Part shown: piece by piece, positions 10,012 through 62,700 of the stretch | Layout: each line of letters begins with the position of its first letter | Numbering within the stretch: position 1 is the first letter of the stretch | Origin: Isoetes taiwanensis | Lineage: Eukaryota; Streptophyta; Lycopodiopsida; Isoetales; Isoetaceae | DNA length: 64,000 nt | NCBI GenBank assembly: GCA_021234155.1 | Contig: JAJEKV010000008.1 | Location: 12,480,962 to 12,544,961, forward strand | Reading direction: 5' to 3' | Made by a program: the position numbers and the translations under genes | The notes under the pieces: generated by a model | Databases searched by the model: none | The model's input: only the letters and a program-made list of their open reading frames with translations | Told to the model about the DNA's origin: nothing

Positions 10012-10262
10012 TGCAACAGCCGAAGAAGATCACAACAGCCGAAGAAGATCGTATCATAGCACAAAGAGCACTGCAACAGCCGAAGAAGATCGTGGTCCAT
10101 CGCCAGCAACAATTCCTGAAAACCGGAGTATGCATGAACAACAAAAAAAGGGGTGATGCACATCGAAAAGGGGTGATGCATGATGAAGAAGCAGCCGAAT
10201 CTCTGATGCTGTCGAATTTGAAGAAAGATGATGCATCGAAAAAGGGGTGATGATGAAGAAAG
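10012..10262. repeat. Short tandem words GCCGAAGAAGATC and AAGGGGTGATG
   Basis: The word 'cagccgaagaagatc' occurs three times between 10018 and 10092. The word 'aaaggggtgatg' occurs three times between 10146 and 10250, mixed with 'gcagccgaatct' words that continue to 10315. Several overlapping frames are open here because of the repeats. I regard none of them as a gene. Confidence 0.55.
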
Positions 10263-10784: not shown

Positions 10785-11125
10785 TCAACATGAGCCGTAG
10801 GATCTTGGACCCAATCAAGGGCCGAGATAGCGCCATGTGGTGAAAATCTAAAGCAACATGAGCTATAAGATCTTGGATCGACGATTAGGATCAAGAACAA
10901 CCTGGACCGTAGGATCGATTACATATAATTCCCAAAGCCATGCACCGTAGGATATGCCCCCAAGCAACGTGAGCCGTAGGATCTCGGACCAATGATCAGG
11001 ATCAAATCAACCTGAACCGTAGGATCATCTATATAGAATCTATATCGAAACTCCCAAGCCATTTGAGCCATAGGATACGTCCCAAAGCCACGTGGGCCGT
11101 AGGATCTCGAACGGACGGTCGGATT
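10785..11125 (+). repeat. Imperfect repeats of GAGCCGTAGGATC
   Basis: The word 'gagccgtaggatc(t)' and close variants recur at about 10792, 10860, 10907, 10941, 10970, 11014, 11065 and 11094, often followed by 'ttggacc' or 'tcggaccaatgat'. The spacing alternates, suggesting an old two-part tandem unit. Confidence 0.55.
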
Positions 11126-11597
11126 GAGTGGGACAAACATAAGAACATATATATGTTAGATAGATAGATAGACATGCAATATATAGGTTTAGGACATAAG
11201 GAGAAATATTGATCGTGAACGTCATATCTAGTAGCTTTTAAGTGGGTGTAAAAAAAGTTCTTTAAGTTCTTTCTATGTTACTTTGTTGTTTATTGGTGTA
11301 GATGGATCTTGAGTGTCCACGTTCGGCAAAAAAAAAAATAAAAAATTCTAGTTCGGTTAAGTCTAAGTTCGTCTTAGCTCATCATCAAACTTTCTCACGG
11401 GTCATATAAGATTGCCATAGAAGGAAGCATTAGTTATATGCTTACAAGCAAAGAAATGATGAATGCAACACATTTTTTTTTTGTATAAATTATTAGTATA
11501 TCCTATAGAGTTAGGTGTGCCTCATTTGTTGACAGAGTTTTAAACTCGATGTGTTGTTTCATTACCTTTAACATTCCACCTTCATGTCACATTCTCG

Positions 11598-24100: not shown

Positions 24101-24340
24101 GAGCTAGCACCATTTCTTCTAAGTTTTGTCAATTCTCTGTATAGTGAATTCAGCACAACATTTTCTTCAGCCATCTTATTAGGATCCCAAGTTTTAGCAA
24201 ATTTCATAACTGTTTCTAGAGACGCAATCATTGCTTCCATTTTCCCTTTATTTCTACTAGCTGCAATCCAAATCTGCTTACACTGATCTTAAAGGAGAGC
24301 TTCGAAAACTGTCCTTAATTCAAATATTTGTCTCCTAGCG
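21180..24340 (-). mobile_element. Decayed L1-type LINE ORF2
   Basis: Read right to left on the minus strand: an endonuclease-to-RT connecting region (about 24340-23900, with W-I-K-E-S-D-K-C-T-S-F-F-F); the RT start with I-D-D-I-V and P-G-Y-R-W (23600-23890); motif B K-G-I-R-Q-G-C-P-L (about 23135-23155); motif C Y-V-D-D-T-F-F-F (about 22990-23010); and the post-RT region with F-L-N-W-N-K (22900-22925). The tail has a zf-RVT-like stretch (about 21420-21560: P-P-K-V-S-T-L-L-W-Q-M-F-H, then C-A-G-M-N-L-M-H-C-W-E). This order is that of plant L1-type elements. Many stops and frame changes show it is dead. The 3' end is probably near 21080-21180. The 5' half (endonuclease, ORF1) was not found. Confidence 0.8.
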
Positions 24341-24344
24341 TGGG

Positions 24345-25070
24345 TCCGAGCTTACTCCCAGTTTTCTCGGATAGCGAGTCGAGAACAAGAACAATAGAAC
24401 TCAAACAAAGGAAATTCATTACAGATTGAAACCAAAGTTCTAGTTGAAAAAGAATTTTTATTAATAAATTGAATAGGTACAATGTATTTTACATCGGACG
24501 CAGAGACCATGGCGGTCTTGCTGTCACTACAGTTACATCGTCGTGGTACGGTGGTCCACCTTAGAGGATTAACTTGCAGGGCTTCTTCATGCCATCTGTA
24601 AGCCTTGGGGGCAACCTGAAGAGGTGCCTCTGGAGCCAACGGCTGACCTGTCCACCTGACTTCTCCACCCTCCTCCCGCAGCTCTTCATCGAATATGCTC
24701 CTTCCCCAACCTCCGTGGATGTTATGCAATGCTTGCAAGATGCTTTGAGCTTTATGGACTATCTCAAATTTCTTCCCCTCTTCTTTATCCCGAGTGTGTG
24801 CATAGCGTCTGCACTCACGAGCAACCTTATCCCAAAGGCCGGGTAAGAGTGTAGCGTGAGCGGGATCTGTGCCAGAACAGTATCTCTGCCGCCTTGAGCG
24901 GGATCTGTGCCGCCTGGAGCGGTCTCTCTGAGGCCTAAACGGGATCTGTGCTGGTGCGGGATCTGTGCCTGAACCACCTGGAGCAAGGAGAGTCTATGAT
25001 TAACAATTACGGTGCCATTAGTCAAAACGAAGAAAAGAATGGTGAATTCAAAATACATTCATTTCATGTA
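24345..25070. other. Repeat-worded region next to ParB-type copy 1
   Basis: The word 'gcgggatctgtgcc' and variants recur at about 24857, 24896, 24938 and 24954, giving open minus-strand frames of low-complexity appearance. A diverged half of the CTCGACTCGCGAGTCGAG palindrome ('ctcggatagcgagtcgagaa') lies at about 24364-24383. The minus frames at 24352-24738 and 24759-25058 do not resemble a known protein. They may be 3' flank of the ParB-type copy 1 gene. Confidence 0.35.
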
Positions 25071-25097
25071 ACTACATCTAATCACGTGGCAAGTAGT

Positions 25098-25374
25098 GCC
25101 TTTCTCGACTCGCGAGTCGAGAAAGGCCCGAAAAAGTCAAAGTACAACCATTTTCATTAGAATATGGCTGCATCCAATCACACACGGAAGCATACAAATG
25201 GTCTCGTCAATGAGACAAGCAATGCCTTTCTCGACTCGCGAGTCGAGAAAGGCCCAGGAAAACCAATGTACAACCATTATAGAATATGACTGCATCCAGT
25301 CACACAAACAAACATACACATAGTTTCATCAATAGGACAAGCATGCCTTTCTCGACTCGCGAGTCGAGAAAGCC
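25098..25374. repeat. Three tandem units carrying a 30-bp perfect palindrome
   Basis: Units of about 127 and 120 bp repeat three times. Each carries the palindrome whose core is CTCGACTCGCGAGTCGAG. Copies 1 (25098-25127) and 2 (25225-25254) are perfect 30-bp palindromes with GCCTTT and AAAGGC arms. The third (25345-25373) lacks one base of its arm. The array lies about 100 bp beyond the stop of the ParB-type copy 1 gene and has the same palindrome as that gene's second intron. Confidence 0.95.
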
Positions 25375-25474
25375 AGCGAAAACTCAATGTACAAGTATAT
25401 TCATTACAAAATATAGTACATTTCTTCATGTTTCTTTACAAAATTTACACAACTCGACTATCTGAAAGCAGAGG

Positions 25475-28400
25475 TCACTCTTCTTGATCACCATAATATT
25501 TGTCGTCCATAGCTTTCATGATCGCGCTGGTCTCTGGATCGACCTGCTTGAGGTTCGGATAGTTCCTAATCACATCGGCCACAAGAATGGCAAACAGGGA
25601 TTCCGCCAATACAGGGACGAGATTCATAGACAACTACCTATCCGTTTCATACTCTTCTGGACGATAAGTCTTGTCAATGATTGTATTTTACGAGTTATGA
25701 TAGCACTTGTAGGCGGAGTCGTCTATGATCCGCGTGTTGTGTTTGTTAAAGTCCGGGAATTGTTCATAAACCCTGTCCAGCCTTTTCACCATAATAGGCT
25801 TCCCCTTTGTGATGGCTGGATCGAGGTCTCACACATGCTCGACCCTTTCGTTTCCCCAAACAAACTTGAACTTCAAAACTGGAAGGCCGAGAACACCGAG
25901 GACATTGACAATATTTTTCTTTGCCATACAAGACCATATGGCCACTTCGAATCCCCGTTCCAGGCACCAATCAATAATCTCCTTTGCTTTAGGCCGGGGA
26001 TACACGATTTTAGACCCCACTTTTGTCGGTATCTGCGAGGTGTTAAGCTCAGGGACGTCTTTATCATGGTATACTGCAACTAATACTCCATTGACGTCAA
26101 ATATTACAAGCTTGGTGGGGCCCGATGGATCCCAATTGAAGTTTGGCTCTGACCAGATTTCCTCTTGATCGGGATCCATATGCGGGATCATTATTTTTTC
26201 GGGTCCTTTCTTGCTGCCCGCACTGTCTTGCTCTTGACTGCCTTTCTTGGATCCAGTATCCTCGTGATGTGAACTGCCAGTAGATCCTTGTGATATTGAC
26301 AATGATCCCGATTCGCTGTAATCGATGTCCCCGGAATGATGAAAACGCCGATAGGAACGCGTTTTCGCCGCGAAGCCGGAAAAGAAAAAGTTAAAGACTC
26401 GGAGCGTTTCCCGACTTCCGAGAGCAAAGTGAACTCACCTCAATCTCAGGTTCTCGAGAATATGTTCGGCAACATCCTCGTCTAAACCTTGGACATTCTC
26501 GTCTCCGTCATCTTTTCTCTCCCCGGGTCGCCGTTTGTCTTCGTCATCATCATCCCATCGCTTCCATTTTTCTTCCTCCCTTTGAAATGCTCATGAAGCA
26601 GGTCCAGGTATGACCGAATGATTTCAACCATGTCCTTATTTCCAACCACGGATATTGGTTTCATTCCATACAGTATAGCCCCCTGAGAGAACAGGCCATT
26701 CATGTACCACTCGCATACAATATGATCTTCCTCGACCAAGCTGGTTATGAAGTACTTGATAACTCTTGGCCGGATAGGAATTCTATGTATTGGACCTGTC
26801 GCACCATCAGTGCTGACTTTGTCCATCAATGGCACATCCTCCATAAATGTGCCACCCTTCCAGGGTTCCATCTGCTCTTGAGAAATCATGAACTTGTCGA
26901 GATAGTGGTGTTCGCTCGACCACCACTTGTCCAGGTCTGCAGCCGATCTTGAAACCAAAACCAAAACTACATTGGCAAAACTTGGTGCCTTTAGCAGTCC
27001 AAGTCTACACTCATGTTCCAGTTCGTATATGGAATACAAGATCTTGTTGGTGAAGTTAATATCAGCTGCCCATTGTGACACAACAGTTGTCTGATTGCCC
27101 GGCATGCAAAAGATAAGGAAACTGAAAGTATCCAGCTCGGTCATGTCGAGATACGTCTTGTACCACTGCTCAATGTCAGCCTTTTCATAAAATAGGGTGG
27201 GGTCTTCGATCATATTCATGGCAAATAGTGCCACGGGCCCACCCAGGTGCCAGTTCCAGACCACCAAACCCCTTGTGTCCCAAGGTTACCAGGAATGGAG
27301 GGGAGCTATCATCGATCTTAAATGGGACCACCCCGAATCCAAGCTTCCTCTTCAGAATTGCCATAGCACGTTCAGGAAAGGGGAGGGTTTTGACGTTACG
27401 CTTTAGCTTGGTGTTGATGTAGGGTTGACATAGACGGTTCAACTCCTTCATGTCTTCCTCATCAAGCGCAGCCTTCTCCTTATAATAATCAAAATCATGG
27501 TCTGCATTGGAGGCAAGATTGCAGAACTCTGTGATGCCTTCTTCCAATGCACGCCGTCTCTTTAGGATTGTGGCATAATCCGTTGCGTCCTGCATTTTTG
27601 AACTTCTACTTTTCCTTAGCAGGATTGTTCCATCCAGGATTCTGCCCTGTAGATCAAGCGTTTCCTTGTCCGTTAGGCCATGTATCCTTTTCATGAATTG
27701 CTTGTCGAACAACTTTGGGTCCGGCCTACACGGCAATTCTCCATTGCTGTCCTTCAGCTTGCCTCTTGTCCATTGAGCCCATATATCAGTCCATTTTTTC
27801 CAGACCGCCTCAGTGCTAAGAATGAGGTCATATTGGTCTGATAGAGATTCCCTGCACTTTCTTGGTGTTCTCTTCTTCTTCTCGTCTTCATCCTCTCCCT
27901 CATCATCTTCCTGGCCTTCCAGAAGAACATACCTGCAGAGTTTCTCAAAGGTCTTCCACTTATCGGAGGGGGCCCTGTTTCCTTTAGGACGCTGAGGACA
28001 ACCCAATGCTTTTCACTGTTGCCTAGCGTGTATGATCTGGTCAGGATACGGGCTGCATTCATTAAATGTCACAATGTCAGAGCATGAAAGTATCTCCTAA
28101 CACCCGAAGGAAACAATAAGCAGGAGGGTGCAAGGGGTTTCTCGACTCGCGAGTCGAGAATACCCACAGGAGAGGAGAAAACATAGGAGAGTCAAGGCCA
28201 GAGCAAAAGCATCGCGCATTCCCAAATCTTTGCTTTCACGCCTCTTCGAACGATGCAACTTAGGATATAAACTAAGCGACATTGCCCGAAGAGGCGGGAA
28301 AGAAAGATTGGGAAGACTCGATGCTTTCACTCTTCAACCATTAATTTCTAATGTTTTCTCTATTACCCTGGAGTTTCTTGACTCGCGAGTCGGGAAAGTC

Positions 28401-30123
28401 AGAGGACCACAGGAAAGGGGAAGATTCAAGGGACTTTCTCGACTCGCGAGTCAAGAATACCCACAGGAGAGGAGAGAACATAGAAGGAGAGTGAATGCCA
28501 GAGGGAAAGCACCGCTTATTCCCAAATCCTTGCTTGCCCCGCCTCTTCGAACGATGCAACTTAGGAAATAAACTAAGCGACATTGCCCGAAGAGGCGAGG
28601 GAAGAAAGGATGGGAAGGCTCGATGCTTTCACTCGTCAACCCTTAATCTCTAATGTTCTGTCTTTTGCCCTAGGGTATCTCGACTCGCGAGTCGAGAAAG
28701 TAAGAGGAGCACAGGAAAGGCGAAGATTGAAGGGGCTTTCTCGACCCGCGAGTCGAGAAAGCCCCTTCAATCTTTACTTTTCTTTACTTCTCTGGGGTTT
28801 GCGAGTCGAGAAACCCCTGAATCAGAAACAGTAATTTACCTTATGTAGCTGGCACTTGCTGCTATTGTGTTCTGGCAGTGGCTAATGCTGGCGAGCTCCG
28901 TTGGTGGCGTGTCCGCTGAAAGAACTCTGCACTCTCGTTTGGAATATCTGTCCTTGATCCTTTGCGGCACTTCCTTTTCCGTCTGCAATACCTGCGCTGC
29001 CCTCACTGAATGTTGGCCGCCCACAACCCAAAACCTGACGTCTTTTCCCTTCAGGTCTTCCTCAGACTTCCAGCTGAACAACTCACCGGTCGATCTGCTG
29101 AATGGTATGACATCCGCAGGCATTGGATCTGCAACAAGATGTCGCACCATCAAGTTCAGAATCTCCAACATGTGTGCTGGATTAAATTCCCTGTGGTTGA
29201 ACAAGACAGCATCTCTTGTGCAAACCTTGAGGCGTCTGATGTCCAGCAGCAGCTTGTGTGATATCCCTAATGGATAATACTGAGCCAGCCACTCCATCTT
29301 CTGGGCCCCTCTCTGTGATTTCCTAATCTGCTCATCTGGATCCAAGAATTGGGAGTCGACCATATCTTCCTCTTCGTCAGCATCTGAATCCTCCCGTGTA
29401 CTCTCTGCTTCATCTGCAGTCTTGTCCGGAGTTTTTTCTTTATGAACTACAATATCCATGGAAACTGCCGAGTGCTTTAGAGTCTTTAGCACCCTGGACG
29501 TAACGATCCCAGTGTTGAACAGCTTCTCCCTCACCCTGGAAATCTCCATTCCAAGCTCCCTGGATGTCAGGGTTCCGGCCTCCTTCATCCCTTCCAGATC
29601 CTTCCACCCAAGGTTCTGACAATTTAAAGGCGCCGGCCTTTTGTCGGTCCCCTTCGACTTGCTCATTGAAGAGTGAGAGTAATTGGATACTGATAACTTC
29701 TTCGTGTGGTAGAACTTACTCTTCAGGCAGTCTTCCACATACAATGTAAGATGCTTCGAATCTGGGGCAGAGACGGAGAGCACAACATCGACCTTCTTGT
29801 ACTTGTCGCCGGAGCTCTTCTTATCCCTTTGCCACAGAAACAGATCTTTCTCCTTCCCACTTGTTGATACTTCGACATACCACCAAGAATCTGCTGGTGT
29901 ATCAAGTAGCTCTGTCTCCAATCCCTCGATAACGAAGAACGGAGTTCTGCCAGTGATCACTAGCGTCTCCGCAGTGAATGCCGCAAAGACGTAAAGATGG
30001 ATCGATAAAAGGTATCCCGACCGAACACAAAACCGAGAGCTCACCCGAGTCACGTCTTTCTTTTCTTGGTGCCGCTTTTGAACCAACTTCCGCTCCGGCC
30101 CGCTTCTTCAATGGAGTCGTCAT
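25475..30123 (-). pseudogene. ParB-like / MTase-like / FCP1-like multidomain gene, copy 1
   Basis: A four-exon gene: exon 1 30123-30045; intron 30044 to about 29960; exon 2 to 28840 (AAG|GTAAAT); intron 28839-28053; exon 3 28052-26439 (GAG|GTGAGT); intron 26438-26316; exon 4 26315-25475. Exon 2 holds a ParB/sulfiredoxin-like domain (F-W-V-V-G-G-Q-H-S-V-R-A-A, then T-P-P-T-E-L-A). Exon 3 has a charged helical linker, then a stretch like a DNA methyltransferase (N-M-I-E-D-P-T-L-F-Y for DPPY; E-W-Y-M-N-G-L-F-S-Q-G-A for the FxGxG loop), both degenerate. Exon 4 has an FCP1/NLI phosphatase-like domain (V-I-F-D-V-N-G-V-L, A-I-W-S-C, K-P-I-M-V-K-R-L, I-I-D-D-S-A-Y-K). Breaks: TGA at 28013-28015, 25829-25831; TAA 25688-25690; TAG 25634-25636; frame changes near 27283 and at a T5 run (26567-26571). 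Domain names are inferred from motifs; function is unknown. Confidence 0.75.
28053..28839 (-). repeat. Intron 2 of copy 1: two 300-bp units with palindromes
   Basis: The intron is made of two tandem units of about 300 bp (about 28135-28434 and 28435-28735), sharing 'cgcctcttcgaacgatgcaa' and 'taaactaagcgacattgccc'. TTCTCGACTCGCGAGTCGAG-type palindromes stand at 28139-28160, 28375-28396, 28435-28456, 28678-28697 and 28733-28766 (34 bp, one mismatch), with a half site at 28801-28813. The segment 'cctcttcgaacgatgcaacttagg...cgacattgcccgaagaggcg' has complementary ends ('gcctcttcg' and 'cgaagaggc'), so each unit can also form a larger hairpin. Confidence 0.85.
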
Positions 30124-31145
30124 ATTCAGATGCCCCGCATCCTCTTGCTCGCTCAAACTCCTTTGTAAATTGAGCCTCTTCCACTTTGGAGGTTTTAGGA
30201 CTACACGTAAAAAAGGTCGGGCGTGTTCTTAAATTTGAAATTAAGGACATACAATCATTCAAGGGAAAAAAGCGGGGCTAAGGGTACAAAGACGCCAGCT
30301 TTTTAGCCCGCCCAAACACCAATTCGAAATTCATTCATTTCGGGGACTTAGTGAGCGCAGCGGAGATTTCCGGCGCTTTAGTTTTACTCGGCATTGGCGA
30401 CTTTGGGGTTATATTACATCGACCGGAGGCCCTTCGATTTGAGCGAGTTCACGGATGGCGCCACGACGCTGTAAGCTCCTAACAGCGCCTTACTCTCTGT
30501 CTATTTCTAACTGCGTGTCTTTTTGCAAATAGTTGATTTGATCGATGAGCACGGGGCTAAGGTAGCAAGCGGAGAGGAGCTGTAACACACGGGAACTCTT
30601 CACTGCAGCGCCATGGAAGAGGGATACACGAGAATCGCTTTGATACAAGTATTTGATGCGGATGCATTGTTGATGAGGCCAACAGAAGAAGCCAAGACTC
30701 TCGGTGAGGCTGCGAGATCTGTGATACAATGGCCCAAGGAATTCCTACGTGAAGAGGTGAGTTTCAGAAAGGCCTTTTTCATTCTCAAAGTGCAACACTT
30801 GCATTCAACTCAAGGATACACTTGCATCAACTGCAATAGAGAAAGAAAGAATGGCAATTAGGGAGCAATTTGCAGATCACCAAAGGGACCAAATATCATG
30901 TAGACAGCTGTATTGGCCTTGGAGAACATTTTCTCAGATGCAGCCTGACAGATTTTTGTGTCTAATTCATGATAAGATGGACCAATACAAGACTTTCTTG
31001 CCAAAGCTAGATCCTTTACCCAAGCGTTGTCAAAACGCTTTTCAGATGAAAGTAAGTCTGGCGGGTGTCTTAACACATGGTCATGGAACTGGAACCTATG
31101 GTCATTTTGTGCTTGATCTATGGAGGGATGATCCAAACTTCCATG

Positions 31146-31605
31146 TGAGCTACCGGCCCTTTGATGGGCTTTCGGCACTCTTCCACTGAGTCATTCTTCA
31201 TGTGTGCCCATTACACATGCTCCAGCATTCCAACATTCCCCCTTAATGGGCACACCAATCCATTCCAGCCTTCACCACAATCCACATGCTTCCCTCCTCG
31301 GGCAACTCCACCACTGCGGGAGTTGGGCTTTCCACTGGCCAAGCTTTGCTCATTCTAACCCCTACACCACTGGGGATTATCCCGGTGCAGTTAAGCACCC
31401 TCTACTTGGGACCATGGCTCTGATACCATGTTGAGAAATGAGATTTCTATGATTGGGTAGACAGGCTAGGGATCGAACCCAGGACCTCTTGCTTGCAAGC
31501 CAAGTACTTTACCACTGAGCTACCGGCCCTTTGATGGGCTTTCGGTACTCTTCCACTGAGTCATTCTTCATGTGTGCCCATTACACATGCTCCAGCATTC
31601 CAACA
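31146..31605 (-). mobile_element. TRIM: miniature LTR retrotransposon with tRNA-like LTR
   Basis: On the minus strand the 5' LTR is 31605-31429 (177 bp), beginning TGTTGG and ending CTCAACA. A primer binding site TGGTATCAGAGCC (31428-31416) follows directly and matches the usual initiator-tRNA-Met site. The internal part is only about 190 bp and non-coding. A polypurine tract AAGGGGGAA (31244-31236) precedes the second LTR, which starts TGTTGG at 31235 and is cut short at 31146 (90 bp left). The two LTR parts differ at one base in their shared 90 bp, so insertion is recent. The element sits inside the DUF7869-type gene. Truncation of the 3' LTR prevents finding the target duplication. Confidence 0.85.
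31459..31529 (-). other. tRNA-Ala(UGC)-like sequence inside the TRIM LTR
   Basis: The 71-bp stretch has an A box TAGCTCAGTGG, an anticodon loop CTTGCAA (UGC), a B box GGTTCGATCCC and acceptor ends that pair at six of seven positions with G-T wobbles. The D stem and one anticodon-stem pair are imperfect, and no intact 3' end is expected. It is therefore a tRNA-like Pol III module of the LTR, not a functional tRNA gene. The truncated second LTR keeps only its first part. Confidence 0.75.
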
Positions 31606-32829
31606 TCATCAACCGCTTTGTTACCAAAGGCAGATAAAAAAGCTCACATCCAAGGTGTCCAGTGAATCAAGGAGGACTGGGATGATTTCCCCTTACTTGA
31701 GAAACAACTACCAGAGGAGCTATGTGTTCAATTGGACAACTGTTGGAAAGAAAACAAGAATAGATGGATGTTTGGGGCAATGTCATACTTGACAGCAGTG
31801 GGAGTATTCAAAGTTGTGAAAGTGGGATTCATGATAGTTGGGCATATGCATGATGATATAGATGCATTCTTTGGAACTTTCTCCACCAAGGTCAAGGGAG
31901 AAAACGTGACTAGTCTCCCTGAACTAATGGATGTGTTTGAGAGTTGCATTGACCCCAACCCAATGGCTTTCTTGATGGATGAGGTTGCAGATTGGAAATC
32001 ATTTGTCGAGGGATACTTGCTATATGGTAAGGATCAGTTGGACAGACACACAAAGCCACTTCAATTCAAGGTTTGGTTTAGGGATGGAATACCAATCATG
32101 CAATATAAGTGGAGACCAGAGTTGTGGCAACGTGGTGCTGCTGTGAAGTTCTCATTCCTAAAGGGCAGCCAAAACCACTACCTCCCTTCAAGACTGTTAA
32201 AGACTCTAGCCAACTAGTGAAGGGCATCAAGGATTATATAACACACTGGGATGATGTTCGAAATAGAAAGCACACCTCCACTCTTAAGAAAAATCACATG
32301 GACTCCCTACCAGATGGGAGGGTTCTCAAGAAGCAAGCACGTCTAAGAATGTTCACTTGGGTCCTAACAAAGGTTCCAAGTGGTTTGTGGGAAGTAAGGC
32401 CTCAAAGCCGAAGTGGTTTGATCTTCCTGAGTGGGATCCCTTTGAGGACATCAAGGAAGGATACTTTGTGCTAGTAAGGCCTGATGATGAGGATTGTCCA
32501 ATATGGTTAGGGGTGGCACTCTCTGATGTAACCACCACTATGGCTGATGGAGAGGAGTTGCGTCCTGGATTCCAAATTCAATATTGGGAGCCCATTGGAA
32601 GACACAAGAAGGGCAACTTGAAGGAGCAATACACCGACTGCCGGGAGAAGAAGTGGAGGGCAAATCATGCTGATCCTCAAAGGAGGGAATTGGTGGAGTG
32701 TGTGGTATGGTCATATCCAAGTTCTCACATTGCAAAGGACAACACACACAAGATCCCAAAAAGGGAGATGGACAAAGCCATGAGCAACCTCCATGCTATA
32801 TCATTGTATGAGGGTAGATAATATTGAGA

Positions 32830-33690
32830 AGCTTGAAAACTTTCTCAACTAGTGGTTTGTAAAATTTATGAGGAAAACAAGTTACCCAATTCTTTGTGTG
32901 TGATGTGTAATTCTATTCAAGCAATCAATTCAGAATTTTTTTTTCTATAGTATGAGTCCCATTTTCAGTCCGAGTCCCAAAATTTGAGATTTGACCCACT
33001 TTAATTAAATGCGACTTTTAACCATCATTCAAGTACCATTATTCACTGACAGATAGGCAGCTGAGTAGATACAGGGAATTGTACTACTCACACAAGATGT
33101 TGGCAGATCTCTATAGTACACTACTGCTTCTGATGAGTAAGCAAGATATTCACCAGCTGCTGATGGAAAATGGATCTGAATTCAATAGCTACAAGTTTGG
33201 GACAAACTCCGGTTTCTATTGGGTGTCTACAATGCCATATTTGATCAAATTATGCAATCCCCATCACCTTAGCCATCATCCTTTACCACTCTTCATTAGC
33301 CTTATCTAAATCGTGCTTCCATTTCATATTTGCTACTGCTCAGTAATTAATCCTCCTCTTGTCCAACATTTTGCTCAAGCACTTGGAAAGAATTTTGTCC
33401 TTGCAGGTTTTTTGAGATCGACTGTTCATGATTGATGCTGCTTTCAGGTTCACATATTAGCTCCTTCAATAGGGGCATGGCAGAGTTAATTACCTTTCCT
33501 TATGCAATATCTTGTTACTTCTAGCAGAGCTCTTTTTGGTTCATTTGAACAACTCTATACTGCTACTTAATTATGTAATTGTTGCTGTTATGATGTAGCT
33601 AATGAGAACACTACTCTCATTAGTAACATTTATGTATGACTTTTATTAATTAATGGAAAAAACACTCTTACCTTAAAAAAAAAAAATTGG
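32830..33690 (+). mobile_element. Probable retroposon 3' end with A tail
   Basis: No coding frame is recognised. The stretch ends in 'tttattaattaatggaaaaaacactcttacctt' followed by A12 (about 33640-33687). The same wording, diverged, precedes the long A tail at 54840-54868. This suggests two copies of one non-LTR element 3' UTR. The 5' limit is unknown; it may start near 33050. Confidence 0.4.
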
Positions 33691-33904
33691 GATGATGTCT
33701 TGATTTTGGGATACATTTTTAATTGCAAGTTTTTAGTAACTTGATTAAATTCACTAACGTTAACTTAAAATCACACATCTTAACTTAAATTCACACACCT
33801 TAACTTCAAATTACAAAATCATATATCAACTGCTCATGTAGTACACAACTTTTCATAACTGTGACTGATACATATTAATGAAGAAAGCATATTTACATAG
33901 TTTT

Positions 33905-36570
33905 TTATTTTTCCTCCAGCATCCCCAATGATATGATAGCCTTATTCCTTACATCCTGAGGTATTGTAACTCTCACATTTCTACCTGGAATAGTTTTTGG
34001 AGTCCACGAGTACAATACGGTTTCAATGTCTAGCCAAAGATCAGGATCAAAAGGATTTCTCCTCCACCTCTTTGTCCAACAATCTGAATATCTTTCTTTA
34101 TCGGTGACATTACTCAATTGATGCACTGGACACCACCATTCTACACGCACCTTATTGAAGTTAACATTACCTTCTTCTTTGCAAATATCTGAGATGGTGT
34201 ATCCCAACCACACTGGATAGGTATCTAGATCTACTGGTTTTACTACTACAAATTGGTGGCACTCCACGTCAATAGAAGCTTCATAACAATCCATGCCTAG
34301 ATATTTTGGCCTATCCTTCTTAGGGCCAACATAGTGTTTGTCAGATTGAGGAGGAGCATATGCCTTAACAATGCTACTAATAGTACCATCATCTTCGTCA
34401 GCACCTGCTAATGTTTTCCACATACTTTTAGGGAACCACCCTTCTTTCAGCTCTTCTGAGGATGTGTCTACCTCATCCAACAAGTTAATCACCTTCTTCC
34501 AGTAATCTATCAATGCACGATTAGTCTCATCCGAATTAGTTTGCCAATGCTTGATGTAGTCATTGATGCCATCCTTAGTCAATCCCAATTGTTTCACTTC
34601 TTCATTCGATTTTAGAGCCTTTGGTTGATCTGAAGGTATCATAAGCTTGCCATTCGCATCCCTATGCCAAATTTCTGTCCCACCTCTCCACTTCTCCTCT
34701 GAAGGTCTCATTTTCCATTCCATGATTAGAATACCTTCTCTCACCCAAAAAGTGAATTGAAGAGGTCTAGAATGACCTTCCATGTCGAGAGCATAACATC
34801 CACAAAACTCTTCCAATCAGGCACTTCTTATATGAGAGATCTTATAGGAGATGGAGTAGTACATCCATGAAATATTCTCAGTAGCCTAGGAAAGTTGGTC
34901 ACTATCTGTTGTCTTAAGACATAACTATATTTTCCAAACAATGCATCCACATCCTCATGAGTATGTCCGGGCATTAGGAACCCCAAATTGACTCTTTCAA
35001 AAGTACCTACAATTAGGTCCATGCCTCCTGAACCTTGCCTTGCTAAACTTTTCAATATTGTTAGGGTTTTCATCCAACAATGCACTATGTAGTGCCTGGC
35101 TAGCTATAGGATCTTGGAGGTGACCATTATAACCATTCTCATAGTTTCTTAAACACCTCATGATACTCCCAATGTAAAAATCTGGGCCATCACTCCACAA
35201 CTCCAAACTAAAATGCCCATAGTAGGTTTGAGACTGCCGTGCAAGATTGCCCCAGTCATTGAAATCTGCAAAGGGTATGATCTTTCACATGACTTAGGTA
35301 TGTACTTGAATTGTGGAAGACAAGTCTTTTGTTGGTCATATGGTCCTTCATATATTCCCTTATCTTAGCCCTTAGACTTGGTTGCACAGTCTTATCTAGT
35401 GTCTCCTTCAGCTTAGCGCATAAATTGCACTTTGCAAAGTTATTTGAAGTTGCTATGGTCACATGCTTGAAATGCTTATTCCATAGCCTACTAAAACGGG
35501 CTAGGATATAGACGCCACTCCAAGTTCCCGAAGCAATGCATTTATTTCCTCTAATATGCTCTTCTGGGTACAATGGGATGGCAATCTCTTTTCAACAACT
35601 CCTCTACCCTGTACATCCTTCTTACTCTTATGTGGCATGCTTTTTGCATTGAAATCCACATATCTTTCAAATATTTCCTTTGCAGCTATAGTTCTTGAGG
35701 TAGACCTTACCAGGCCAGTGTTCCCGTGCAATGCAATTCTACTGCCAGTTTCATGTCTCTTTAGTTGTGCTAAGAAGCGGTTGTAATTCCATGTATAGCC
35801 ATCCATGCTTTTGAACATATCCACTTTCCGTTCAATGGAAATCTTTTCTTCTTTGATCTTTCATCCCGAATTGCATAGCCAAATATGGTGTACATGAAAT
35901 TCCTCCTGCTATCACACTTATTTTCCTAATATGTACCTCTTTCTCCCACCATCTCGTCTATTGTGAACATTCTAATACATGAGGCCCAACAACATTCACT
36001 TCCCCAAACCTTCATCAAGGCTTCAGGAGAACAATCATAATCTGACTTGCATCTTTTGATGGGATAATGTTTGAAAGTTGGAAGTGGCCTCTTGCTACAC
36101 TATGTGAATATTATTGACAATAGTTCTGCATCTATAGGTAACATGTAGTTCCCCTCCAGTTGAATACTGTCCCTAGGCCATGCCACAATAGTTGCAACCT
36201 CTAGTTGCTTCACACAAGCAAGGCATTCTTGTTTGCCTGACCCCTTTTCCTTCCAATTGTCATATAATTTTGAGATTGCCACACCTAACCTGTCCTCTCC
36301 TAATCTTTCATCATTGACTGCATTGATAGGATCTGCTAGAACAATAATCCCTTCTCCTACTACCTCTCTATTGCATTCATGCAGGATCTTGACCTTTTTG
36401 TTTTTTCAATCGACCCGAGTATAAAGTACAATTTCCTTTCCTTTGGCATCATCCTTTTCATTTGGGGTCTTTTCCTTTCAATTGCCATCATCAACATCAT
36501 TTAGAGTCTTTTCCTTTCCTTGGGCATCATCTTCATCATTTGGGGATTTTTCCTTGCCTTGGTCATCATC
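33905..36570 (-). pseudogene. DUF7869-type transposase-like gene, right copy
   Basis: Minus-strand order: an acidic low-complexity N-terminus of N-D-x-D-D-x-G-K-E-K repeats (about 36570-36430); a DUF8039-like part (G-E-G-I-I-V-L-A-D-P-I-N-A-V, I-V-A-W-P-R-D; 36350-36130); a middle with C-N-L-C-A-K-L-K (35256-35573); G-H-F-S-L-E-L-W near 35210; G-H-T-H-E-D-V-D-A-L-F-G (about 34950-34920); and the long C-terminus (33905-34816) with V-V-V-K-P-V-D-L-D-T-Y-P-V-W-L-G. The stretch with the QLDN/ENKN motif that should precede GHTHEDVD is missing, by internal deletion. An in-frame TAA at about 34826-34828 and a frame change just after it break the end. It converges on the left copy and lies head-to-head with ParB-type copy 2. 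Confidence 0.7.
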
Positions 36571-36992
36571 ATTGGGGGCATTTTTTTAGCATGTTACATG
36601 CCATTGACCTTTAATACATACAAACATAGAATAAGTTAGTATATCCAAAAAACATCTCCCCAACATGTCCTTAAATGAAAGCATACTTTTTTTAATCAAT
36701 AAAGAATAGCATACTTTATAAAAAATTGTGAGAGGGAGTTCTTTGATAACTTCTATAATAACTTCTTCGATACTATCTATCTATATGTATGCATCTTTGT
36801 TTATGATGACATTTTATTTCTATTACATCTAAGGCACCATAAGGCTATGCATGTCATCAATTCCTCATATATCTTATTTTATGTCATATAAAATCTGGTA
36901 AGTAATGCTCTCTGCCCTTAAGTAGATCTATGTATCATATGCTTTTTTTTTTTTTTTTTTTTTTTTTATACTATGATATGCTAGTATGGACG
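36571..36992. other. Region without a gene; T25 run
   Basis: AT-rich sequence with a T run at 36943-36967. No gene is recognised. Confidence 0.5.
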
Positions 36993-37204
36993 AAATCGCG
37001 CTTGGTGCATTTTAATTTTGCCCTTTTCATTTCCTGCAAATTTATTCAAAATGTGCCAGGCGCATATAGAGTAGAACTCTTAAAAAAACACCCTTTAGAA
37101 AACGCGTCTGGCGCATTTTGAACATAAAACTTTTCAGATTATTTTCTGGCGAGAGGAATATTATTTTCTAATTAGTTAATTTCTCTCGTTCTAGTGCATT
37201 TCAC

Positions 37205-37576
37205 ATGGCTTATTCTCATTCAAGTACACTTCCTTTGGACGACAATCAACGCTGGACCATGTACAAGTTACTTCTTAATTGTGCTGTTCAAAACCTACAA
37301 AAAGAGATGGATAAGCCATTCGACAATCTTTATGTAAGGCCATGGGAATGCTACCATCGCATCACGGGGTTTATCCGACTCTTCAGGCTCTTAGTGTATC
37401 TCATGCCAACAAATAAATATGAGGATATGATTAGGAAGGCCAGAGATCGACGGGATACTCTGATATGGGGACTCAACATTCCCAATGAATGGGATGACGG
37501 TGTCATATCAAAGTGGTACAGTGGCCACGTGACTCGTTATCTTGCTGATCAAGTGGGCCTTTGTGACATTTTGTAG
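37205..37576 (+). CDS. Hypothetical 123-residue protein
   Basis: An intact ATG-to-stop frame with natural composition: rich in W, R, L and Y, mostly helical in appearance, no signal peptide or membrane segment, and no family I recognise. Residues 40-60 include Y-V-R-P-W-E-C-Y-H-R-I-T-G-F. It lies between two clusters of the AATCGCGCC palindromes, about 1.1 kb upstream of ParB-type copy 2, and in the same orientation. It could be a separate small gene of the same element or a leftover exon. Unlike its neighbours it has no internal stop. Confidence 0.45.
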   Translation: MAYSHSSTLPLDDNQRWTMYKLLLNCAVQNLQKEMDKPFDNLYVRPWECYHRITGFIRLFRLLVYLMPTNKYEDMIRKARDRRDTLIWGLNIPNEWDDGVISKWYSGHVTRYLADQVGLCDIL

Positions 37577-38590
37577 AGATATGTACAGCCTTATTGTGTT
37601 AGATATGTACAGCCTCCTATGTTAGTTTGGAAAAAACTTGCGCCTGGCGCATTTTGACACACAAAAAAAAAATCTACATTTTATTTTGTGAATATTAATA
37701 TAATCTCGCGCCTGGCGCAATTTTGTACTGCAGACTTTTATCTCACAAGACTTTTATTATGTTTTCTTTTATATGCAATGTCAGAAACGTTGAAATCCTT
37801 TGATGCCCTCTAGTCAGTCTGACCAACCTCAAGAAACTACACATTTTAATTAACGTGTGGTTTTCTGGGGTTGATAATACTGGCTAAAGAGCATAAAAGA
37901 ATGTTCAATATTCATACCATGACGCACATGTTATGATATATTTAGATTATGTTTCAGTAGTCAACAGAATTATACACACACCTTTTTCAGACGTTCTTTT
38001 GGCCATGCTACAATTGTGCCCACGCTTTAGCCAACTGTATCGCCACCGGGATGTCTTCGCGGAAGAGCCTCATCCTCATAATTGCAATTTATAATCGAAA
38101 TCTTACAGAAACTATTTCCAAGAGGAACACCATGGCACATAGAACTTGGATTCAGATCTTCGACTTTACATAATCCTACTCGGCGCTTCAAGTTTGCTGT
38201 TAAAAGATAACATTCTCCGACACTGATAAACAACCAGAATGATAGAATTGGCATGAAAAAAAACAAAACGAAGCTGTGCATATTCAGAATGGAATGACAC
38301 TCACCGTAGTTCAGCCGACATGATCGATTGAAGACTTGGAAGATGGTCGATTGAAGACGCTCAAGATGCTATTAGAAGCGGGTCGGTGATCTTGGAAGAT
38401 TAGGTGGAAGTAGCTTGCCACATATGCATTTTTGAAAATAAGAATTAATTATTTTCTTGAAATTGCAATAAAAAGAAAAGCACATTAAAAAAATGTAAAT
38501 GAGCGGGATGGGCGGTTACTTAAGGTGGTATAATTTTAAAATGACGGGAATTTGAAATGACGGTTCTAATCTGACGGCTTAGATTATCAA
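37577..38590. other. Intergenic region upstream of copy 2
   Basis: It holds two palindrome copies (37637, 37701). Otherwise no gene is recognised. A minus frame at 38027-38281 is probably chance. Confidence 0.4.
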
Positions 38591-38593
38591 CCC

Positions 38594-38602
38594 ATATATA
38601 TA
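38594..38602 (+). promoter_or_regulatory. TATA box of ParB-type copy 2
   Basis: 'tatatataa' lies about 55-60 bp before the ATG at 38655, which would give a short leader of roughly 25-30 bases. Confidence 0.5.
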
Positions 38603-38654
38603 AATTTGAACCAAAACTCCAGTCTCATAACATATCTTCCGAACTTGCAGTTCT

Positions 38655-41600
38655 ATGGCATCTGGAGGATCTGGCAGCCGCGGCTGAGGCGCAGGTAGAG
38701 GTGGGCGACATGCCAAAGCAACCCAGGATCTTGTTGAACAAGCTGAAAGTACTAATCCAGCTAGCCGTTCAGGTAATCATCAAAATTTTCTTATATATTT
38801 TGTTTCTGCGTCCCTCTTTTTGTTAGGTTTATCGGATGTTTTTCTTTAATACTAGAGTTATTATCCGCTAAGAAGCACATGTCCTCTAATACTTCAGTTC
38901 ATATATCCCAAGATGTATGCAAATATATGCTATGACGAGATATCTTTATTTTTTGATATTTCTTCATGTTGTGTTTTCGTTCATTTCTGTATCCACTATT
39001 TTTAGTCTTCTATAGTTAGTTGTGCTTTCAAATGAAGATTAAAATCTCTAAGGTCGGTTTTAAAGCGCGCCAAACGTGTATTTGTTGCATATATTCCAAG
39101 AATTATATTAATTTCTTATCTCTGTATCCTATACTGACAAACCCCTTTTGTTTCGGACAAAATGCCCCTGGCGCAATTTAGACTAAGATTATAATCTCTC
39201 AAAGTTTCAAAGCGCGCCAAGCGCGTTTTTGTTGCATACGTTGCAAGTTAGCATATATTTTCACATTTCAACATTAACGTTATGCTATCATTCTGCAGGA
39301 ACACAAAGGACAATCAAAAGGAAAATCAAACTCAGTCAAACATCTTTAGCCCAGAAAAAGCAAAGGACAGATGAAGACGTTACCGTTACAGACCTACAGC
39401 ATGTGTGTTGACGTTAGAATATACATCTGGAATAATAAAGGCTCAGGTAGAACCTCCATGTCCAGAAGAAGATCTTATAGAGGGGTCAGAATGATATGTC
39501 GAGATCTTTAAGACTAATGGGAAGACAGATCTTATTTTCATGTCTAGGGTAAAAGAGACTGATTAAATGAAGAAGCAGGGAATTGTTATCACATGCGAAG
39601 AATAGGACGATTCATATTGTTCAGTGTTCGTTGAAGTGGGGCAAAAAAAATAAGAAGAGCCTAAAAAAGATTAATCGGTGCAGTTCTAGTTATTTTAAAG
39701 AGACTGTCCTAAGATCAGACGACACTGTCGACACCTTGTTCAAATTTGGTTGGACAGTTGGTGAGCCATTGACACCTAAAAGAATATGCGAAGGGCTTTC
39801 AACTGTACGACGTGCCATCAGCACGAGGCCCTCAGGCAGTGTCTATATGCAGGTATTGAAGGATAAGGAAGATGCAAGTTCTAGAGGCAGGGACACTACA
39901 GAAGTTGCAGCAGGCCTTATAAGTGATGATGACAAGGCCAGGCAGTTGGAGGCGATGAGCAAGCTCAAAAAATATGCTGACAAGTATCCACTGGGCCTTA
40001 GCTTCACCCATCCCGTCCACGTCGATAGGTTTTTCAGGTCGACTAAAGCTATTTATGTCAGCAGAAGTTACGACAAGCAGCACTCCTTGGAGTTAGTCAA
40101 CAGCATGATCGAAAATCTAGGGCAGATACCAATGCCGGCAAATGTAATGCCTTACGATACGAAGAGAGGAAGGTACTCATGTGGAACAAGCTGGAGGACT
40201 TCATCGACAACCAAGACGTACATTTCATGATAATAGATGGCCAGCACTCAATTGAGGCTCAGAAGGTTCTGATGTGGAAGGCACAGAATACTGGAAATCA
40301 GTTGTTCTATAGGCTGTATTCGGTCAGCAACTGCAGGCTCTTGAGCGGCTCAACAACTCCTACCGAGCTAGCCGAAATCAGTGCACTTCTTAACGACATG
40401 GGAAAAACGTTTCTGTACAAAAGGTAAATCTTTCTTCCCTCTCTTTTCGTTTTCGTATTTGCAAATCGTGCCAGGCATGATTTGCCTATTCAGAAACTCG
40501 ATACGTTTAACTGAGTATTCTGGTTAGTCAAATCGTGCCTGGCACGATTTTCTTCTATTTTGAAATCGCGCCAGACGCGATTTGCATATTCAAAAACGAG
40601 AATGCTTCAACCAGTGAAAGCTGCCTCCTTTCAAAATACGCAAATCGCGCCTGGCGCGATTTCCCTTCTATTCTGAAATCGCGCCAGACGTGATTTGCAT
40701 TTTCAGAAACGGGACTGTGTGTTAACCAGTGAAAGCGGTCTCTTTTTAGAATACGCAAATCGCATCTGGCGCAATTTGTTGTTAATTTGGAACTAACAGA
40801 TTTATTTTTCGCAGCCCCTATATACAGCAATTGCGGCATGCTCATAACCAATGGATAGAGTATGGGAAATCAATGCCAACCAGACAGGGTCAGTCTAAAA
40901 GCGTTGAATTCAAATTGCTAGAAAGGACACTTTGTCAGACTATAATACAAGATAAGAGTAAGAGCACCAGGGCGAAGAGAAAAAAAGGAGATGAAATGGA
41001 GATCCTTCCGAAGCCCCTACTATACCCAAGGATGCCTGCAAAATAATTTTTGCTTATGACCAGGTCTGAGAAAAATGGAACGAATTCTGGGATGCCTACG
41101 TGGAGAAGAAGTTGTCTGATTCACAAGGCAAATTTCCTCCTGTTGACACATCAATATTCGATCTCCATGTCACAGAGATGAGGAAGTCCCAGGGATTAGA
41201 CGATGAAGAACTGATTTCGGTTCTGGACAGGTGCATCAGAAAAGAAGTCCTTTACAAGAAAAGTTCTGCAGCGAAGGACAAGGTATCATTTGAAGACGCC
41301 TGCGACCAACTGAAAAATATTCGAGTGCTCAGGATGGCAGTTGGAGCGGAGTTACAAAAGGCTTACAGGTGAGTGGTCTAGGACTAATGCAAAAATACGA
41401 CGTCTCCAATGATGATCTGAAGAAGTATGTTTTTTGGTCGAAAGACTTTGTCAAACAGCAGAAGTTGAAAAACGTTGCAAACCTGCGTGGGATTCACACG
41501 AAAGTGGCATCCGACTTGAAAATAAAAGTCGCATTGGTGAAGTAGACTCCGAAGAAGAATCCACATTCTTTTACCAAGTGTCCACTGGTTTTAATACAAT

Positions 41601-43572
41601 TCCAGATGTGGGTAAAGGACCGCATGATATCACACTCTTCATGCTTGATAACCGAGGCATCAGATGGTCGCTTCATGACTGTAATACATTCTATGATACA
41701 TGCGGTGGTTTTACGACAGAAATGCATTATACAATTGTCACAATTTACCCTCCGACATGTCCTATGCATATGCTCTATCTGCTGCAAAGGATTTAGAATG
41801 CGTTAAAGTGATACGGCAAGCAATCCTTATAGATGAAAATAGGGACAGTGAGTTTAGCACAGAAAGTAAAATCTCTCATGTGCTAATCATTATGATAGCC
41901 ATGATGGATGATAAGGAATATGAAAGGCTTAAGGAGAAACCAGAAGGCAAAAAACTTACATGGCAGTGCTATCAGCTAGATGAACCCCTCCTGCAAAACG
42001 TCTTCTATCTTGAGCAAACTATTGAAGATAAGGGGAAGGGTGTCGTAGATGTGGAACAGCGAGAACTTGAAGAGGAAGATGAGAAAGTAAACCAGCTCCT
42101 AACGTCAATTAAGGGGATGCTAAACAAGAACGCGTTCTCTATGGGCTTTTCTCATTATCTCGTTGAAGCATTTTGCGCATTGGGGGCAACTTGCTGGGAG
42201 CTTTATGTCGGAGGTTACATCGATAGGGAAGCTTTGAAGTTAGCAAGGAAATGCCAAAGCGTCGTCCTCGATGATCGATCCAAGCATTTCTTAGAGCTCC
42301 TTTTTTAGAAAGTGCTAGAGGAAGCACCTAGGGGTCCAATCGGCAGTGCAAAAAGCAAAGCTTCTAGCTCTAAGGCTGAAATACCTGCAGATTTGGCTAA
42401 AGAACGGGAGGCTATGAGACGGCACCTGGCTAGCATCAATATGGATATCACCAAAGAGCAGATAGTGGTTCCGGATCCTGTCGAAACGTTCGACATGCCT
42501 GTGAACATCGAAGATAAAGAATAGGATGAAAATAATAAGGATGAAGATAATGACAGGGATCGAGAGTCGAAATCTGAAAGCTCTAACCAGGTTAGCGTAA
42601 AGAGTAATGAACTATCAACCATAGTTCAAACTATACAGATCTTAACTGATGTGGTTGATGCTTCTAGCAGACCGGAGACAACACAGAATAAAGAAGCAAT
42701 GGAAGAATACACCACGAGGATTGATGAAGAAGAAAGGTATTGTGGCCAAGCTCGTTGTCTTATGATATTCATGCATTTTACTAATGACGCGCATATGGAA
42801 ATCGCACCTGGCGCGATTTAGAGTTTCCTTTGGTTTCATATTTTTAGAATTTGTTGACATGCTTCTTTGTATAAATCGCGCCTGGCGCATTTTCTTATTC
42901 CATTTCTTTCATCTCATACGTATCTGTTTGCGTTACAGACATAGTTCAGCTTCCCCAAAAATACTGGTCTTTGATTTGAATGGTGTGCTATGCAGAACGT
43001 TACCTAAAGCAACATTTGATAAGTCATGATATGCACAGAAACCATTTGAAATGCATACCAAATATGTTTACCTGCGCCCTTATCTGAAAGAGATGTTGGA
43101 CCAGGCCTTTAGTCTGTTTCGTTGTGCAATTTGGTCATCTATGGAACATGGAAATATACATGAAGTTTTGAGAGTAGTGCCTGAGCTAAATAGAGATTGG
43201 GCGTCCATCTAGGATCAAAGCAAATGTGCTTCATTTACAAACCCTAAGGATCTGACAGGTAAAAAAATATTTGTGAAATGCTTGCGCACCATGATGGATG
43301 CTCTAGGTGTTGAGGAAAAGGAAGGCATGATCATGGTTGATGATGACGCCCTCAAGTGTTGCTTCAATCAGTCACAGTCATTAAATCCACGATCCTATCA
43401 TCCTAATATGTTTAGCACAGATGACTTTCTACTTCGTTTTATCAGTGCCTTGCAAGAAATAGCTTCCGAAAAATCGGTCAAAGAGATACAAACACTATAT
43501 CCACAACTTGATTGGATGGGGGAAATTGACAGGGACCTTGAGAAAATTGTTCTAGAAAGGGAACTATTTTGA
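38655..43572 (+). pseudogene. ParB-like / MTase-like / FCP1-like multidomain gene, copy 2
   Basis: Exon 1 38655-38771 (Gly/Arg-rich start), intron 38772-39297, exon 2 39298-40423, intron 40424-40814, exon 3 40815-42736, intron 42737-42938, exon 4 42939-43572. Intron phases 1, 2 and 2 and positions equal those of copy 1. Exon 2: Y-P-L-G-L-S, then F-M-I-I-D-G-Q-H-S-I-E-A-Q-K and T-T-P-T-E-L-A-E-I (ParB/Srx-like). Exon 3: the linker matches copy 1, and C-W-E-L-Y-V-G-G-Y-I aligns with copy 1's MTase-like loop. Exon 4: I-L-V-F-D-L-N-G-V-L, A-I-W-S-S, I-M-V-D-D-D-A-L-K (FCP1-like). In-frame stops: TGA 38685-38687, TGA 39492-39494, TAA 39564-39566, TAG 39603-39605, TAA 39651-39653, TGA 43027-43029, TAG 43210-43212, with others in exon 3. 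Frame changes occur at an A8 run (39643-39650) and near 40170. More decayed than copy 1, from which it is strongly diverged (my rough estimate by eye is below 45% identity in the best part). Confidence 0.75.
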
Positions 43573-44358
43573 TATATGTATACCGAAAATATACTTTGCA
43601 TAAATATTTTGAATATGAAATATATTTTACACAAAAGCTTTTGAATATATATTGTGTTATTGTAAAATAACTTTGCAATGTTCTATGGTGTTGATCTTCT
43701 CTGATTATTAGAGACGAAATACAACTGTCTGTAGCAGCATTATTGGTTCTGTATATGTATTGTATTATTCTATTATGTATATGATTTACTATACGTCCAA
43801 TAATTTGTATGTATATACCGTCAATAATTTTGATGGGTATAAATAGATGTGCATCATTGTACCTCCAGCGAGGCATAGAACTTGAAGACTGGCTGACTGT
43901 CGTTGCTATGAATCACGTCTGCTTCTATCCTGATCCCTTCGATGTTGCGATCCATCTGCTATGGAATCTAGATCATGGTTTGTTCATGATCAAAAAGGAT
44001 CTCGGGGAGTTTTTCCCGTTGATGATGAATCGAATAGTTTTTGGCATTTATGTTGTTTGATCATGCTATATTTATGCCAACAAAATCGCGTCGGCAAACT
44101 TAATCCCGAACTCACTTAAATCTAAGTTTTGTAGCCACTTGCTTGCCGTTATTTATTGAAAAAAGGCTTCTTATTTTACTCTATAAATTTCGTAGTTGTC
44201 CATGATGGTATAAAATAATATGCAATTTTCTACTTTATGGGTGATTTGCATCGTATTTTTGAATGTCGTTCAATTTCAACACAAAATGCATATTCCCAGG
44301 CTGAAAATGAACTCAGTGCAAAAGTATGGTTAATTCAATACAAAGGTAAATAATACTT
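43573..44358. other. Region without a recognisable gene
   Basis: AT-rich 3' flank of copy 2. A plus frame at 43809-44060 has no recognisable family. A partial palindrome half (aaaatcgcg) is near 44081. Confidence 0.4.
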
Positions 44359-62358: not shown

Positions 62359-62700
62359 CTTCTAGGCATCGCAAAAAGGTGGTTGCCCTTTTCAAAAGGA
62401 TCAACGGCCGTCGTGGAGATGGACGGTCGGATGCGAATATTATATTTATCTATATTAACTATGCGTCGGATGTATCTATCGACGTGAATATCTATCTATC
62501 TAGCTATAAATATGGAATTTGTAATTTTTTTTTGAAATTATCATACTTTTTTTTAACGCTTTGGCTATTTTTCTGGCTGCATATGTGAGATCTTAACACT
62601 CGCCACCATCTTGCTCTAAAATCTCTTCTTCTTCTTCTTTTAAATCTTTGGAAGGAGTAATTCTAGGCAGCTTAAAATTTTCTGAAATTTTCAGCTGACC
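62359..62700. other. Upstream flank of the HKT pseudogene
   Basis: No gene; short pyrimidine-rich runs such as 'cttcttcttcttc' and 'ctatctatctat'. Confidence 0.45.

Follow-up and report, generated by a model that had tools for sequence, protein, structure and literature searches.

In the lycophyte Isoetes taiwanensis, two genes that join a ParB/DndB-like part to an FCP1/NIF-type end were found to be components of large DNA transposons. Both lie in the window analysed here, a stretch of 64,000 nucleotides (contig JAJEKV010000008.1 of assembly GCA_021234155.1, positions 12,480,962 to 12,544,961, forward strand). Each of the two, genes A and B, makes up half of a 12-13 kb transposon; the other half codes for a DUF7869 protein in head-to-head orientation. 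The transposons constitute a group of related families whose copies and remnants number in the hundreds and probably in the thousands. Each lineage carries its own palindrome, at 15-22 sites per element in the five copies read. As judged from the sequence, the element-encoded ParB-like factor may bind the palindromes of its own lineage, perhaps acting against silencing in the manner of VANC, a proposal that we regard as evenly poised between right and wrong.

The initial annotation had placed two diverged genes with a shared domain order at 25475..43572 and suspected a mobile or amplifying family. The strands, order, homology, and approximately four exons per gene agree with the first claim, and the second is strongly supported by terminal inverted repeats (TIRs), target site duplications (TSDs), and many copies. 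The span stops short of the full units (A, about 24302-33017; B, about 33684-44353), and the intervening DUF7869 genes, the palindromes, and a small open reading frame (ORF) at 37172-37576, ORF37, had gone unmentioned. The units are as follows.

24302..33017, minus strand: transposon A, window copy; main blocks 86-97% identical to copies X and Y; the end at 24302 is truncated
32993..33017, minus strand: TIR of family A; exact match, 0 expected; 669 exact genome sites, control 0
33684..44353, plus strand: transposon B, window copy; lacks its right end; an insertion of about 650 bases separates it from a left-end fragment at 33020-33035

The ends and the TIR of family A were derived by comparing copies X and Y with the window. 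The TIR (~25 bp) was searched with zero mismatches across the genome (1.66 Gb, 1,110 contigs) and occurs 315 times in the forward and 354 times in the reverse orientation, with 0 in the control. Among the matches listed (100 of the 669 places), ten inverted pairs lie 2-13 kb apart, and all ten are flanked by perfect 4-bp target duplications. Copy Z of family A is complete from TIR to TIR, with 12,291 bp, both genes, and 22 palindromes. In copy X, where it faces the ParB-like gene head to head, the DUF7869 gene has a first exon at 9237-9094, a 3.7-kb intron, and exons at 5330-3859, which are 90-94% identical in their main pieces to the DUF7869 exons of window A; the DUF7869 exons are absent from copy Y. 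For family B, copy U is the sole copy with both ends, bounded by an inverted repeat of ~32 bp with one mismatch and the TSD ATTA. Its pieces share 78-93% DNA identity with window 33684-44353, and those of copy V share 79-92% with window 34818-43854; the gene order in both is DUF7869 (minus), ORF37 (plus), ParB gene (plus). The TIR and the TSD are those expected of cut-and-paste DNA transposons (class II, TIR), and a 4-bp TSD would also fit the Sola superfamily. The large exon of A gave 5,217 first-look candidates, not all of them confirmed, and the 99 that were scored yielded 103 matches at 62-100% identity; the B exon gave 2,889 first-look candidates, of which 150 were scored, yielding 150 matches at 56-100% identity. 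A ParB exon identical to that of window B, at G000:C923:1380299-1380553, may represent a recent regional duplication or a young copy.

Several other readings of the units were rejected. Copies X, Z, U, and V rule out an independent gene beside an unrelated DUF7869 transposon. An end of element A at window 30783 is ruled out as well, the window copy having an intron deletion there. A giant-virus or phage insertion was rejected because introns, TIRs, and TSDs are present; of three pieces compared with phage records by tblastn, two had no match and the third had four matches at chance level (E 4-9), and scans of viral and prokaryote contigs gave no match. Protein database searches with near full-length queries returned no relative of the ParB gene; exon-sized fragments were left out of them because of the query length and a length rule, the database appears to hold few plants, and rarity is not implied. 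At the junction of the two elements, the left end of A at 33017 is followed by two bases and then by the probable left end of B (33020-33035). The approximately 650 bases at 33036-33681, which contain a poly-A tract and interrupt transposon B at its left end, may have been retroposed.

The palindromes occupy introns and flanks where they were mapped (window copies and copy Z), at the following sites in the window.

24363..25371, no strand: palindrome A sites in the 3' flank, at 24363, 25101, 25227, and 25348, by motif scan
28138..28760, no strand: palindrome A sites in an intron, at 28138, 28374, 28435, 28676, and 28737; 0 expected
36993..42893, no strand: 15 palindrome B sites by motif scan, at 36993, 37099, 37635, 37703, 39062, 39159, 39209, 40463, 40530, 40563, 40642, 40676, 40757, 42799, and 42873; five random controls 0-2 each

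None of the 15 palindrome B sites falls within an exon, by the present exon reading. The two transposon units contain 12 of the 15 long palindromes (over 30% GC) in the window, and the genome holds 3,678 exact sites for A and 613 for B (controls 0). A model-free search of copy Z found 18 palindromes, of which 16 correspond to motif A and one arises from two neighbouring sites, against 0-3 per sequence in 30 random sequences with the same dinucleotide make-up; the sites of copy Z lie at 3981-5000, 7578-8091, 10043-10091, and 11110-11363, with one at 12121 of 12,291. Motif A was present in 30/30 A loci and 0/24 other loci, motif B in 14/14 B loci and 0/30 A loci, and an altered motif in three of the five loci of a third lineage (C). 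General genome repeats are thereby ruled out as the nature of the palindromes, which are lineage-bound across the 54 loci read.

Gene A (minus) and gene B (plus) read as diverged versions of one protein, with AG/GT splice sites permitting approximately four exons in each and a joined reading of about 1100-1200 aa. The two share 36% identity over 85 aa in the ParB-like exon (BLASTP 3e-13), 29-31% in the linker, 27-37% in the FCP1 part, and 26% across the joined length.

28840..29945, minus strand: gene A, large exon (N-terminal part and ParB-like); open frame, conserved in 30 loci; donor GT beyond 28840 by eye
28839..29279, minus strand: gene A, ParB/DndB-like domain (GQHS box); hhalign 24.8 against a best shuffle of 20.5; dN/dS 0.14
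26439..28052, minus strand: gene A, exon 3, broken, helical linker and methyltransferase (MTase)-like part; AG/GT borders, homology to B
25475..26315, minus strand: gene A, exon 4, broken, FCP1/NIF-like domain; Pfam NIF 0.0026, below cut-off; copy Z 5.4e-7
38655-38772, plus strand: gene B, exon 1; AG/GT reading
39299..40423, plus strand: gene B, exon 2, with the ParB/DndB-like domain at 39976-40423; frame break 40170; dN/dS 0.12
40815..42736, plus strand: gene B, exon 3, broken, linker and MTase-like part; AG/GT borders, homology
42939..43572, plus strand: gene B, exon 4, broken, FCP1/NIF-like domain; Pfam NIF 1.1e-5; copy U 4.6e-12

A 5' exon of gene A upstream of 28840-29945 is placed with less certainty. 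The gene layout first described stands in its order, with the correction that both window genes are pseudogenes. In gene A, exon 3 is interrupted by one in-frame stop and the FCP1 part by three, and there are frame breaks as well; in gene B, the frame is broken at 40170 and at about 41040 and 41370, and stops are also present.

The FCP1-type end, already recognised in the initial annotation, is a solid assignment. Pfam NIF (gathering score 21.8 bits) was matched by copy Z (29.9 bits) and copy U (46.4 bits), with 17.9 bits for the window piece of A and 25.6 and 21.8 bits for those of B, and a PDB search matched UBLCP1 (1.1e-5). The motif D-x-N-G-V-L occurs in 7/7 copies read (window A, window B, X, Y, Z, U, V). 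The catalytic motif of FCP1/SCP phosphatases is DxDx(T/V); here the first Asp is kept and the second is Asn.

The ParB/DndB-like assignment is of moderate strength. A profile of 28 element sequences, compared by hhalign with 77 viral ParB sequences collected with a hand-typed consensus, scored 24.8 in the expected register of box I and box II, with a P of 0.00095 and a probability of 22%, and the best of 100 column shuffles reached 20.5. The profile was built from A-type loci together with A and B; 27 of the 30 A loci, those with >120 residues and including the window's own, were considered. Extending the profile by B- and C-type rows gave a score of 24.6, with a P of 0.0012 and a probability of 20%, against at most 19.6 in 100 shuffles. 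Pfam DndB was reached at 0.0023 (C-type domain alone) and 0.083 and DUF6551 at 0.11-0.18, all below the gathering score. The initial annotation had made both domain claims answerable to profile searches: FCP1 was matched, and the ParB/Srx-like part came close to failing, with no match of the element proteins to Pfam models named ParB, no curated family above gathering, and a relation visible only between profiles. The box GQHS is kept in 11/11 aligned sequences. An AlphaFold model of the domain had a pLDDT (predicted local distance difference test) of 37.7.

For the MTase-like part, a derivation from methyltransferases is suggestive only. It aligned with a score of 23.7 (P 0.012, probability 3.5%), a higher score was reached by one of 60 shuffles, and leaving out copy B abolished the signal (P 0.23). 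There was no hit in Pfam, PHROGs, NCBIfam, or PDB, and no FxGxG or DPPY motif was seen.

Constraint is strongest in the ParB-like domain. The ratio of nonsynonymous to synonymous change (dN/dS) was 0.14 in family A (19 of 30 loci, 171 pairs) and 0.12 in family B (14 loci, 90/91 pairs); stop codons were excluded from the rate estimates, and CpG decay may raise dS. Pooled pN/pS ratios, computed per part from two to four copies each, were 0.21 for ParB in A, and in B 0.14 for its second half and 0.31 for its first half with the N part. They were 0.51 (A; one of the copies includes a bad stretch) and 0.23 (B) for the linker, 0.54 (A) for the N-terminal part, 0.55 (A) and 0.29 and 0.38 (B) for the FCP1 part, 0.60 (A) and 0.55 (B) for the MTase-like part, 0.34-0.72 for DUF7869, and 0.59 for ORF37. 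Such ratios indicate that the ParB-like domain was a functional protein during the spread of the families.

The remaining genes of the elements are listed below.

30613..30756, plus strand: DUF7869 gene of A, first exon; divergent from the ParB gene; kept in 28/30 A loci (missed in L172 and L188)
30779..32821, plus strand: DUF7869 gene of A; Pfam DUF7869 1.2e-35; same gene in copies X and Z; TRIM-like insertion at 31152-31607
33905..35860, minus strand: DUF7869 gene of B; Pfam 6.1e-12; 66% identical to P0001
37205..37576, plus strand: ORF37, an additional small ORF in family B; identity of 72-76% with copies U and V; weak constraint

The DUF7869 protein probably serves as the element's transposase. 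Profile searches of the DUF7869 proteins found no transposase family above cut-off, and the predicted structure was unusable (pLDDT 38). The open-access literature searched contained no mention of DUF7869. P0001, a JGI protein on a 2,165-base contig, may derive from an environmental sample that contained a related plant. The TRIM-like insertion in the DUF7869 exon of A has 91-base direct repeats that are 99% alike, a tRNA-Ala call, and a stretch resembling a tRNA primer site. ORF37 had no family match, and no ORF37-like gene was found in family A. Elsewhere in the window, a dense array of ~10-base TTCTAGAAC-like units lies at 8781-9789, a reverse-transcriptase-like ORF (FRYMDD) of Penelope-like look, by eye, at 6829-7620, and an ORF resembling a plant HKT/TrkH-type cation transporter, by eye, at 61606-62361.

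In the proposed mechanism, the ParB/DndB-like part would act as a dimer and bind the palindromes of its own lineage, so that the protein would cluster over the non-coding DNA of the element. The FCP1-like end would thereby be delivered to the element's chromatin or transcription machinery, a role that is a guess, and the element genes might escape silencing, or be otherwise switched, with other transposons untouched. The MTase-like part was perhaps once a DNA methylase of phage or bacterial type and may now serve mainly in structure or binding. A joint change of protein and palindrome could then give rise to a new independent lineage. The ParB-like protein would be the simplest carrier of DNA binding because it includes the most constrained part and because ParB/DndB-type proteins bind DNA sites. 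A fuller version, in which a phage or bacterial ParB-methylase would have been turned into a self-addressing chromatin factor that reads its own parS-like palindrome, delivers an FCP1-like domain (Pol II C-terminal domain phosphatase-type, possibly a pseudo-enzyme), and defeats silencing, with co-evolved lineages mutually blind, is offered tentatively and is on balance doubtful.

A number of observations weigh against binding by the ParB-like protein. The hhalign probability of the ParB relation is only 20-22%, no helix-turn-helix was recognised in the protein, and serine occupies the position of the P-motif arginine (GxxR). This arginine is needed in ParB (PMC12704722, available text), and nucleotide switching may therefore have been lost. 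The match between lineage and motif is weakened in that loci within one family share descent, and the C motif is missing from two of the five C-type loci. The C core and the B core differ by two letters, so that a count allowing two mismatches finds C sites in 9 of the 14 B loci too. In L222, a B-type locus with 87% identity in the ParB exon, a palindrome with another core, GTTAACCAC..GTGGTTAAC, stands beside one B-type site; the ParB exon alone therefore does not dictate the motif. The even form of the L222 core occurs at three genome places, and the locus may show a recent motif switch. Finally, palindromes also occur inside the DUF7869-gene intron of family A, so their position is silent on which protein binds them.

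This last point favours an alternative in which the DUF7869 protein, as transposase, would bind the palindromes as (sub)terminal and internal sites needed for transposition, and the ParB-like protein would do something unrelated or act as an excision co-factor. Palindromes also lie near the right end, the DUF7869 genes diverged in parallel with the ParB genes, and plant DNA transposons commonly have subterminal repeats. In copy Z, however, the arrays are mostly mid-element and intronic, away from the ends, and we consider the alternative unlikely, though a serious contender. The palindromes might instead act as folded DNA or RNA (cruciforms, intron or 3' end hairpins) in transcript processing, as double-stranded RNA, or as self-spreading mini-inserts. 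In the outer arms of copy Z, 130/242 pairs are symmetric, against a mean of 109 and a maximum of 134 in 2,000 shuffles, and some outer arms differ in sequence yet still pair. The excess is nevertheless small (1248/2420 at 220 unique sites, which are related, against a mean of 1181 and a maximum of 1249), and the core letters themselves are conserved, as for a binding site, which makes folding quite improbable.

A working ParB-guided DNA methylase, marking its own element with N6-methyladenine or N4-methylcytosine as proposed for algal transposons, seems very unlikely. The MTase-like stretch does align at the expected register of the X-I-II motifs of methyltransferases, but by eye the DPPY-like and FxGxG motifs are not kept, the profile searches and shuffles described above gave little sign of a methylase, and the part is less constrained than ParB. 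The order of ParB and MTase parts and the opposite-strand position are those of Sola1-1_Ec32 of Ectocarpus (PMC12477816, available text). A parS-like partition or replication system for an extrachromosomal form would suit a large element with a ParB-like domain and repeated palindromes, but no ParA was seen among its genes, a plain TIR and a 4-bp TSD fit cut-and-paste movement, and the sites spread through introns with no single cluster, leaving it highly improbable.

Binding of own palindromes by the ParB-like protein has partial parallels in known systems. VANDALs belong to the MULEs, and VANC is not known to be ParB-like. As in VANDAL/VANC of Arabidopsis, an accessory protein is encoded by the element and a short motif is repeated in introns and upstream regions; the VANC motifs, which form tandem repeats and differ between related elements, have 8-9 bases and are not described as palindromes in the available text, and binding and demethylation have been demonstrated for VANC, in contrast to the Isoetes element, known from sequence alone (PMC5735166). 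Arrays of a motif that are confined to an element's own non-coding DNA and differ from lineage to lineage are characteristic of VANC targets (PMC5735166). In Ectocarpus, Sola1-1_Ec32 carries a ParB-like gene with an N4/N6 MTase opposite its transposase and has green and red algal relatives; such genes were suggested to bind their own element (PMC12477816, which lists Iyer 2011 as ref 50 and Petroll 2025 as ref 51). Shared with it are the large DNA transposon, an accessory gene that runs in the opposite direction to the transposase gene, and a long protein (1104 aa in Sola1-1_Ec32) with a ParB-like and a DNA methyltransferase-type domain. The Isoetes elements, compared by description only, differ in the plant host, the DUF7869 gene, the degenerate MTase part, the added FCP1/NIF-type end, and the lineage-specific palindrome arrays; the available text of PMC12477816 mentions no palindromes, names no phosphatase, and gives no binding site for the algal genes.

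DndB has been called ParB-like, and in phages DUF6551 occurs as a fusion with the ParB-CTPase fold (PMC12704722, available text). The GQHx-type box and its register, as well as the N6_N4 methyltransferase fusion of phages, are similar (PMC12704722), but the present genes are eukaryotic and intron-bearing, with Ser for the P-motif Arg and an FCP1-like end. ParB-parS partition likewise combines a ParB-like domain with palindromic sites, unlike the present case in that no ParA is seen, no helix-turn-helix is recognised, and the sites are scattered through introns. Since ParB-MTase genes occur on algal transposons, the gene type is already known; the FCP1 end, the palindromes, and the land-plant families were not found among the papers listed by open-access literature searches.

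With a candidate site in hand and natural lineages that differ in both protein and site, self-recognition is directly testable with recombinant protein. If true, it would represent a second, unrelated VANC-like solution, and the families would be a source of sequence-specific DNA binders with palindromic targets of 20-24 bp.

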